Assembly: GCF_000327285.1 (NCBI RefSeq)
Contig: NZ_HE998568.1
Coordinates: forward strand, 607,898 to 654,342
DNA length: 46,445 bases
Origin: Holdemania massiliensis AP2
GTDB taxonomy: Bacteria > Bacillota_I > Bacilli_A > Erysipelotrichales > Erysipelotrichaceae
Direction: 5' to 3'
A program made the position numbers and the translations under genes. Under the pieces are notes generated by a model that was given only the letters and a program-made list of their open reading frames with translations, ran no database searches and was not told the DNA's origin. Position 1 is the stretch's first letter, and every line of letters starts with the position of its first letter. Of the stretch, positions 23,019-33,160 are shown one piece after another.

Positions 23019-23158
23019 TTGTCTTAACTCAGAAAAGGACTATAATAAAAGCGTAGGGTCGCTTGCAACAGCGATACCCGTCATTCACTACCTCTTACGA
23101 GGGAAGTGGTGGACAGATAAACGCCGAGAATCTTTGTGAGAGTTGACGGCGTTTTTTC
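23019..23158 (+). ncRNA. Candidate antitoxin RNA (RatA-like), with promoter and terminator
   Basis: A promoter TTGTCT (23019-23024), 16-base spacer, TATAAT (23041-23046) would start an RNA near 23053. It would fold into a hairpin (GGGTCGC paired with GCGATACCC, 23056-23079), a second stem around 23081-23113, and a terminator (AACGCCG/CGGCGTT, 23120-23153) followed by a T run ending near 23158, giving about 106 nt. It has no open frame with a ribosome site. It is convergent with, and overlaps by about 70 nt, the 3' end of the small hydrophobic peptide gene on the other strand, as in txpA/RatA. A second copy of the RNA lies at 33034-33160. Confidence 0.75.
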
Positions 23159-23270
23159 TTTTTCGGTCTATAATTTTCAATCTGTATTCAAGAAACAGGA
23201 TCGTTGTTTGGACGATCAGTATGAATTCAGAAAGAGAAATAGAGCTCAAAAGTTTTATGAATAGCTTCAT
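23088..23270 (-). CDS. Candidate type I toxin, 60-residue hydrophobic/basic peptide
   Basis: A 60-residue peptide with one predicted membrane segment (about residues 11-29, with SEFILIVQTTILFLEY) followed by a strongly basic tail (IDRKRKN...RR...PRKR). This is the architecture of TxpA/BsrG/Hol_Tox type I toxins, which insert in the membrane; homology was judged by layout, not by search. The ATG at 23270 has an excellent AAAGGAGGGG ribosome site 8 bases upstream, which strongly favours real translation and this start over the open-frame start at 23363. The stop and last third of the gene are overlapped by the convergent RNA. The RNA's first hairpin, read on this strand, is followed by TACGCTTTTATT and can be the toxin's terminator. 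No clear toxin promoter was found. Confidence 0.72.
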   Translation of the reverse strand: MKLFIKLLSSISLSEFILIVQTTILFLEYRLKIIDRKRKNAVNSHKDSRRLSVHHFPRKR

Positions 23271-23495
23271 AAAAAGCCCCTCCTTTCCTAAGCTCAGAAA
23301 ATCGAACTTGAAAAACAATGAATCAAACAATGATCCATCCGGACGGGCAACCGCTGTTAACAAGAAATCCTACATTTCTAATATTGCGGAAAATTGGAAA
23401 AAGCCCCGCCAAAAATTGAAAAAAGTAAGGTTACAGCACAGATTTTCTGATCCCCTTATGTAAATCTTATGAAACAATCAATTGAAAAAAGCATG

Positions 23496-31667: not shown

Positions 31668-31768
31668 TTCCTTTATTTTTGCGGATTTCCTAATTTCTAG
31701 CATTATGAATGAAAGCGGTTGCCAAGAAGTGCGAACAGGACTACACTGAAAAGCAGGAGCGTCATGAC

Positions 31769-33037
31769 ATGAAAAACAAGCAAAGCTTAAAACTGCATCA
31801 AGCTCAGCATCAGCGGCAGGCGTTCTCTCCTGCACGCGGACGTTTTGTCGAAACCTTAACAAAAAACCGGCAGGAGCTGAACGTACAGCTGCGTTCTTTG
31901 ATTGCGGCCAATCCTTTTCTGCACACCGTCAGTGATGAAGTCTTATCGATCCAGCCGGCCGCGGCCTCGGACATCCGGGAAGACTTGTTGCTGCAGCTGC
32001 ATACCGGCAGCTGGCCTTGCAGGACTGAAGCCGCTGAATATATCATTGAATCCCTGGACGATCATGGCTTTTTTGATCCCCAGCTTCCTGCCCCTGGATT
32101 TTCAGCCAGTCAGATTGACGATGCGCTGAGGGTCGTTCAGCAATTTGAACCCTTCGGCGTTGGTTTGCGCAGCAGTGTGGAATATCTTGTCAGACAGCTG
32201 GAAAGCCGTCAGGAAGCGCTGGCGCTTCGTATTTTAACCGAAGGCGCACAGGAATTAACCGCTCATCAAACTGCCGCTTTATGCCAGAAATTGAAAATCA
32301 CTGAGGATCAGCTTACGCATCAGCTGAAGATCATCCGAAGCTGCCAGCTCTATCCCTGTCAGCTGAATCCTGCTTCTGAATCCTATATTCAGGCGGATGT
32401 TTTGCTGGAGCTGGAAGACGATGAATTCCGGATCACATCGCTGACGCCGCAGGTTGTTGTGGATCGGCCGCAGGGCCCGTTGAGTCCGGAATTAAAACGT
32501 TATCTCAATGAGGCTCAGCTGACCTTGGATTTGATTGATCAGCGTAATCTCACTTTACAGCTTGTTTTTCGCTGTCTGGTGCGTTATCAACAGAATCATC
32601 TGATGAAGGGGGCTCCGCTGGCTATCTGCCGTCTTAAAGATATTGCCGAAGATACAGGTCTTCATATTTCAACGGTATCCCGTGCCTGCGCTCATAAATA
32701 TTTTGAATATCAAGGGCATATCCGCCCGGTATCCGATCTCCTATGCAAATCCATTCATCATGTCAGCTATTCCGAGATAGAACTTCATCTGCGTACCTGG
32801 ATAGCCGCTGAAAATTCAGCTGATCCGCTGGACGATGATCAGCTGGCCCGACGTTTCGCCTCGCTGGGAGTTCCGCTTTCCCGCCGCCGGATTGCCGCGT
32901 ACCGCAAACGCCTGAACATCCCCAATTCCTATCAGCGCCGTCAGATTAGCAAGACACAGTTCTGTTCTGCAAAGACTTTTTCCCGGCAGAGCAATAAAAC
33001 AGAGGTTAAGGTTGAAAAAACTGGGAAAGCACCTTGA
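31769..33037 (+). CDS. rpoN: RNA polymerase sigma-54 factor
   Basis: A 422-residue sigma-54. A Gln-rich activator-contact region I at the N-terminus is short and divergent; the core-binding region follows, then the HTH segment LKDIAEDTGLHISTVSRACA and, near the C-terminus, the RpoN box SRRRIAAYRKRLNIPNSYQ that reads the -24 GG. The ATG at 31769 has a CAGGAG ribosome site; an earlier in-frame ATG at 31709 would add 20 residues of less typical sequence. It is divergent from the LevR-type activator, so this locus carries factor, activator and target together. No other -24/-12 promoter was noticed in the window. Confidence 0.95.
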   Translation: MKNKQSLKLHQAQHQRQAFSPARGRFVETLTKNRQELNVQLRSLIAANPFLHTVSDEVLSIQPAAASDIREDLLLQLHTGSWPCRTEAAEYIIESLDDHGFFDPQLPAPGFSASQIDDALRVVQQFEPFGVGLRSSVEYLVRQLESRQEALALRILTEGAQELTAHQTAALCQKLKITEDQLTHQLKIIRSCQLYPCQLNPASESYIQADVLLELEDDEFRITSLTPQVVVDRPQGPLSPELKRYLNEAQLTLDLIDQRNLTLQLVFRCLVRYQQNHLMKGAPLAICRLKDIAEDTGLHISTVSRACAHKYFEYQGHIRPVSDLLCKSIHHVSYSEIELHLRTWIAAENSADPLDDDQLARRFASLGVPLSRRRIAAYRKRLNIPNSYQRRQISKTQFCSAKTFSRQSNKTEVKVEKTGKAP

Positions 33038-33160
33038 AATCACTCAGAAATGGACTGTAATAAAAGCGCAGGGTTGCTTGCAACAGCGATACCGTCATTC
33101 ACAACTCTTGAACAGAACAACGCCGGTCATCTATGGAAGAGAACGGCGTTTATTCTTTTT
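33034..33160 (+). ncRNA. Second copy of the antitoxin-like RNA
   Basis: TTGAAA (33034-33039, overlapping the rpoN stop codon), a 16-base spacer and TGTAAT (33056-33061) would start an RNA near 33068. Its first part matches the RNA at 23019-23158 almost base for base (shared GCTTGCAACAGCGATACC and GTCATTCAC). It has the same terminator stem AACGCCG/CGGCGTT (33119-33150) with a T-rich tail. A C-to-T change in the first stem keeps pairing as a wobble. The middle stem of the first copy is missing, so the RNA is about 92 nt. The -10 box is weaker. Confidence 0.65.

Follow-up and report, generated by a model that had tools for sequence, protein, structure and literature searches.

In the bsrG/SR4 and txpA/RatA systems of Bacillus subtilis, the toxin mRNA and a convergent antisense RNA overlap at their 3' ends, and the toxin is a hydrophobic peptide with a basic tail. 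The antitoxin SR4 starts pairing at its terminator loop (PMC6562991), as does the antitoxin of the par system (PMC7472228), and in both systems the first contact involves a YUNR motif in a terminator loop. The type I antitoxins of Clostridioides difficile are highly cognate-specific (PMC7699646), and in aapA and hok the toxin mRNA is closed by pairing of its 5' and 3' ends (PMC6733600).

The same convergent layout, with a peptide of similar size and kind, is found in a 46,445-nucleotide stretch of the Holdemania massiliensis AP2 chromosome (hereafter, the window), between glyA and a MATE-type exporter gene, both on the minus strand (names read from their translations). Here the gene of a small hydrophobic peptide is overlapped by an antisense RNA gene (Table 1), and the locus probably belongs to a new family of type I toxin-antitoxin modules that are chromosomal and present in many copies. 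A sequence-only reading of the window had proposed a type I module by analogy with txpA/RatA and bsrG/SR4; the comparisons described below support this proposal for a putatively functional and toxic pair, and add to it a multicopy family, a hypervariable YUNR loop, a repeated 5' hairpin and a toxin promoter element shared with other genes. A literature search found no type I system reported for Holdemania. If correct, the assignment places a type I family beyond the peptide and RNA families known so far in a genus common in the human gut.

Table 1 Features of the candidate module, numbered by position in the window
Feature	Position	Strand	Remarks
Antisense RNA promoter, TTGTCT-16-TATAAT	23019-23046	+	Scores 10/12
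Antisense (putative antitoxin) RNA, ~105 nt	23053-23157	+	Start inferred from promoter, end from terminator T run
5' repeat / hairpin 1 of RNA	23053-23082	+	In a full-length toxin mRNA, its 3'-terminal complement can pair with 23339-23374
Hairpin 2 of RNA (GUC...GAC)	23080-23114	+	Covarying pairs; antisense to toxin stop and last codons
Terminator hairpin (ACGCCG/CGGCGU) and T run	23121-23157	+	Stem covaries across copies
Hypervariable terminator loop	23127-23146	+	YUNR at 23133-23136; proposed to confer specificity
Putative toxin gene, 60 codons and stop	23088-23270	-	Homologues, purifying selection outside overlap, hydropathy, tail charge
Shine-Dalgarno site AAAGGAGGGG of putative toxin gene	23277-23286	-	Just before ATG
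5' repeat of toxin mRNA (TGTAGG...GCCCGTCCGG)	23339-23374	-	Homologous to 5' hairpin of antisense RNA
Toxin promoter-like element GCGGGGCTTTTTCCAATTTTCCGCAATAT, 29 bp	23381-23409	-	Recurs before other genes of the same genome
Second, degenerate RNA copy	33065-33156	+	Opposite toxin frame lost

The putative toxin gene and its antisense RNA

The 60-residue frame singled out in the sequence-only reading encodes the peptide MKLFIKLLSSISLSEFILIVQTTILFLEYRLKIIDRKRKNAVNSHKDSRRLSVHHFPRKR. A second full copy of the module in the 3.8-Mb source genome (G000) is 92% identical to it in DNA and 97% in peptide, differing by an in-frame deletion of one codon, and this degree of identity argues that the window module is not a chance arrangement. 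The ribosome site that had been recognized next to the ATG is a family trait: AAAGGAGGG or a close variant serves as Shine-Dalgarno site before every intact homologue, across 12 intact modules. An alternative start that would lengthen the frame to 91 codons (TTG at 23363) was rejected; its ribosome site is weak and the upstream part of the frame is not kept in the second copy.

Aligned peptides begin with a hydrophobic or amphipathic helix, continue through II-x-x-K-x-K and a variable linker, and end in a conserved basic stretch, RLSVHxF..KR or RSSVRRH.KR. The single membrane segment originally described is modest in the window copy (Kyte-Doolittle 19-residue mean of 1.7) as in Holdemania copies at large (1.3-2.0), versus 2.9-3.0 in copies from a second genus; its weakness in the window subfamily counts against a toxin. 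No credible match to the peptide was found in Pfam, NCBIfam, PHROG, PADLOC or the PDB, in agreement with the earlier view that it belongs to no described family. PHROG returned only matches with E-values of 0.01-0.1 to families of unknown function, which were not taken as homology, and the NCBIfam models of type I toxins had no sequence match to the peptide. The comparison with Hol_Tox that had been suggested was carried out, and the model (PF16935) has zero matches in the source genome.

The antisense RNA gene likewise has the promoter and terminator first ascribed to it, and in relatives the -35 and -10 hexamers are conserved as TTGAAA and TATACT. It overlaps 70 of the 183 nt of the toxin frame (the final 38%), where its complementarity to the toxin mRNA is, by position, perfect. 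The fold is more stable than that of dinucleotide shuffles (z = -3.9). An alignment of 19 RNA copies contains three hairpins, with 92.5% of cells paired and two-sided changes at nine pairs; its covariation score of 0.282 compares with 0.175 +/- 0.011 for shuffled alignments (reached in 0 of 500) and with 0.146 or less in slid registers. Helices 3-5 are well supported, and hairpin 1 less so, because subfamilies use different registers in it. The suggestion that this first hairpin, read on the opposite strand, terminates the toxin mRNA appears doubtful, as the U-rich run TTTTATTATAG is not kept in relatives. No Rfam family, described antitoxin RNA families included, matches the RNA; at permissive E-values the sole matches were chance-level ones, to eukaryotic families and to SIB_RNA, the latter at 13.6 bits against a gathering score of 56.

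Copies, toxin loss and selection

A covariance search for the pair in related genomes, proposed alongside the original description, revealed strict co-occurrence: a toxin profile and an RNA covariance model, searched independently, identified the same 6 of 273 family genomes, in 2 of 60 genera (Holdemania and an Erysipelotrichaceae genus known from MAGs). Two other species of the Holdemania genus hold 13 and 11 RNA copies, 13 being the maximum per genome, a fourth (2.0 Mb) holds zero, and three species of the second genus have one or two each. Samples of the class (395 genomes) and phylum (392 genomes) contained no RNA match beyond the source genome. Among named genomes, the RNA pattern matched Holdemania filiformis DSM 12042, Holdemania sp. 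Marseille-P2844 and three Erysipelotrichaceae MAGs, and a degenerate pattern made from a single toxin found nothing. Phages and plasmids searched by tblastn and blastn, and viral contigs, gave no match, and thus no phage or plasmid link is seen. By layout and conservation the pairs are a new family of type I-like modules, with a hypothetical function.

For about a third or more of the RNA copies the opposite toxin is missing or disrupted, and the RNA can thus be retained on its own. The same IS110-type element (Pfam DEDD_Tnp_IS110, 3e-25) interrupts at least four modules of genome G173 between codons 38 and 39, leaving the toxin halves 1.8-1.9 kb apart, and several copies in genome G172 have assembly gaps at this position. 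The element (L036:1643-3142, also in L038, L040, L069 and L078) encodes a transposase with DEDD_Tnp_IS110 and Transposase_20 domains. Its insertion point lies between the hydrophobic part and the tail of the toxin, just after the RNA terminator, and these repeated insertions make the toxin genes a natural multi-site target for a bridge-RNA transposon. Two diverged RNA copies without a recognizable toxin frame, L065 (G000:C3:190179-190287) and L081 (G173:C12:300508-300617), are either solitary antitoxin-like RNAs or remnants. The degenerate copy in the window adjoins a 442-codon frame (31709-33037, plus strand) that by eye resembles RpoN (sigma-54).

A broken frame opposite a retained RNA had been named as an observation that would speak against the module if general. 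It occurs at single loci, by decay or IS110 insertion, and is not general, given the 12 intact pairs. Such loci (the degenerate window copy, L065 and L079) are what would be expected if the RNA were a free-standing structured sRNA or a structured repeat and the opposite peptide frame a by-product, and conservation of the tail codons could be explained by the RNA alone. For the latter reason, dN/dS was computed on the first 36 codons only, which lie outside the RNA overlap. Values were 0.07-0.34 inside the MEHFLELF subfamily (G172 and G173), 0.35-0.38 among the second-genus copies and 0.6-0.65 between the window copy and its nearest foreign relative, indicating purifying selection on the non-overlapping part of the peptide among related copies. 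The strong Shine-Dalgarno site and the start are also conserved, and the sole indel between the two source-genome copies is in frame. The by-product explanation is accordingly left with very little probability, and the peptide is treated below as the product of a module.

The terminator loop and the repeated 5' ends

The terminator loop of the RNA is hypervariable. Same-genome RNA pairs with 1-3 changes among the other 65-74 nt carry 4-12 among the 20-22 loop positions (lowest Fisher p, 5e-7), and within this loop a YUNR motif occupies one alignment column in 17 of the 19 RNAs. At one locus (L011, G207:C90), two complete modules stand in tandem and are near-identical apart from the terminator loop, which has seven changes, versus one synonymous and one non-synonymous change in the first 37 codons. 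In the clearest case, one pair of cross-species orthologues (L070/L071) has an identical loop, with three synonymous changes. A variable loop with a retained YUNR U-turn suggests a specificity loop for each pair, and a kissing loop that gives every pair its own identity is the simplest reading of the pattern.

The loop may instead be variable from lack of constraint alone, with no function in specificity and with paralogous RNAs silencing each other's toxins. In older pairs its divergence is about equal to synonymous divergence, and on the toxin side it encodes the variable linker. Since only the youngest paralogs have loops that outpace the synonymous rate, relaxed constraint does explain part of the variability. 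In those recent same-genome pairs (L011/L011b and L009/L019), however, 15 of 41 loop positions have changed compared with 3 of about 48-53 synonymous sites (p ~4e-4), a contrast that gene conversion of the flanks could mimic. YUNR is retained inside the loop, and just 1 of 75 same-genome pairs shares a loop, both of its toxins being interrupted by IS110. Unconstrained drift as the whole explanation is hence somewhat unlikely, and a specificity loop is the reading kept here. If so, the family would be unusually well suited to studying the insulation of antisense pairs, as it includes nearly identical paralogs that diverge mainly in a single 20-nt loop.

The 5' ends provide a second repeated feature. 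Each of the 12 toxin mRNAs examined is predicted to begin with a homologue of the 5' repeat of the RNA (TGTAGGG...GCCCGTC), placed at the same distance from a -10-like AATATT as the RNA repeat is from TATACT. A unit of about 300 bp found at many unrelated sites and bounded by inverted repeats of about 34 nt resembles a small mobile element of the MITE type, whose terminal repeats would have no regulatory role. Against this, each repeat begins where transcription is inferred to start, the promoters outside the two repeats differ, and the copies remain homologous beyond the repeats and into both promoters; a purely mobile unit is on these grounds very unlikely, and the repeats are taken to be the 5' ends of two transcripts of a toxin-antitoxin module.

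As the transcripts converge and have homologous 5' ends, a toxin mRNA that is read through the RNA gene would be complementary at its 5' end to its own 3' end. With this 3' end assumed, a fold-back helix of -29 to -47 kcal/mol is predicted in 12 of 12 modules, and the long-distance helix is present in every predicted full-length fold, with 13-28 expected pairs. Repeats of one module or clade are the best match for each other, and 5' and 3' repeats of one module pair better than those of different modules (mean of -39 versus -32 kcal/mol; 0 of 20,000 permutations, uncorrected for ancestry). In most shortened mRNAs, the GCCCGTCC arm is predicted to mask the Shine-Dalgarno site. This site is predicted to be mostly paired both with and without the mRNA 3' end, and any effect of the fold-back on translation is hypothetical. 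Fold-back inhibition as in hok and aapA is plausible, given the assumed mRNA 3' end.

The toxin promoter-like element and relation to known systems

A variant of the GCGGGGCTTTTTCCAATTTTCCGCAATAT element, which has the form GGCTTTTT-N8-CCGCAATATTA, is located at about -110 of every Holdemania toxin and is not evident before the toxins of the second genus. The element occurs in three Holdemania genomes (the window copy, L082-L111 and L121-L150), 15 times in the source genome, 11 in G173, 6 in G172 and 0 in G174, and the reversed pattern has zero matches in the same genomes. Elsewhere its distance to the following start codon is about 18-30 nt. The genes concerned are, by Pfam, a ComFA-like helicase gene and many PDDEXK_2 genes and, as read from the sequence, a gene for a Flp-like small protein heading an operon with CpaB/SAF-containing (Tad pilus) genes, a second SAF-domain gene and a WXG100-like gene. 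A classical sporulation sigma-H is one candidate for recognizing the element, and several sigma factors match TIGR02859 below its cut-off. The element resembles a promoter read by an alternative sigma factor, which would serve a DNA-uptake or surface regulon, and such an alternative-promoter regulon in Holdemania appears to be undescribed; in L. sakei, sigma-H activates com genes, comFA included (PMC3364868). At two further sites (G000:C3:106907, L139, and G173:C13:181532, L140), the element stands before a stretch without a clear gene (…AGAGGGACGATT…) that may specify another non-coding RNA of the regulon.

A promoter element common to the toxins and to comFA, Tad-pilus, WXG100-like and many PD-(D/E)XK genes would also fit a small membrane protein of the DNA-uptake or cell-surface regulon that is tuned by a cis-antisense RNA and is not a toxin; conserved small membrane peptides are common. 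The many copies duplicate rapidly, often lose the toxin while keeping the RNA, and appear insulated from one another, a pattern characteristic of toxin-antitoxin modules and not of a single-purpose structural protein; this makes such a role quite unlikely for the peptide. Returning to the type I module, a wider role is conceivable and is put forward tentatively, its probability being below even: the dispersed family would be wired into a DNA-uptake (competence-type) regulon, in which the alternative promoter induces the paralogous toxins together with comFA, Tad pili, WXG100 and PD-(D/E)XK nucleases, each toxin is held by its own RNA through the diversifying YUNR loop, and the fate of the cell changes as copies are newly taken up or lost. 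Through the promoter element that they share, a link between induction of the toxins and DNA uptake lends itself to direct testing.

In the mechanism that we infer, transcription of the toxin mRNA would start at the special promoter about 100 nt upstream and yield a toxic peptide of about 60 residues, in which a single hydrophobic helix is followed by a strongly basic tail. The convergent RNA of about 105 nt would be made constitutively from its vegetative-type promoter and pair with the 3' part of the toxin mRNA, with first contact probably a kissing interaction at the YUNR U-turn of the terminator loop. This contact would then zip into a full duplex that is degraded (by RNase III), left untranslated or both. 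As terminator loops differ among paralogs of the same genome, each RNA would silence mainly its own toxin, and the full-length toxin transcript would fold back 5' to 3' and stay inert until shortened.

Compared with bsrG/SR4 and txpA/RatA, neither the toxin nor the RNA has a sequence match, the RNA is shorter (~105 nt versus 163-222 nt), inverted 5' repeats and many paralogs are present, and the RNA loop contains a YUNR motif that the txpA/RatA loops lack. The par system of pAD1 (Fst/RNA II) and the Fst/Ldr group share convergent promoters and repeats near the 5' ends (PMC7472228). In par, initial contact at a terminator loop with a YUNR U-turn and sequestration of the Shine-Dalgarno site by 5' structure are described (PMC7472228), and a likeness in both is predicted here. 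YUNR is carried by the antitoxin RNA here and by RNA I in par; in par, direct DNA repeats produce complementary RNAs, whereas the repeats here are inverted and produce homologous 5' ends of the same sense. The peptide lacks the PXXXG(C) and tryptophan pattern by which Fst is defined (PMC7472228) and is about twice the length of Fst.

The 5'-3' closure of the toxin mRNA in hok/Sok and aapA/IsoA (PMC6733600) has a predicted counterpart here, and these systems likewise have many chromosomal copies, some inactivated by insertion elements. Their peptides and RNAs are different, and the closure predicted here relies on the 5' hairpin of the antitoxin being repeated in inverted orientation. C. difficile also has several convergent type I pairs in one genome (CD0977.1-RCd11 and relatives; PMC7699646); those reported in that study are prophage-linked, whereas no prophage link is seen here and no family is shared in the libraries searched. 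In the multicopy ibs/Sib family of E. coli, the RNA has defined target-recognition domains (PMC4147584); Sib covers the ribosome site and the whole frame, whereas the RNA described here covers only the 3' third, and its variable site is the terminator loop.
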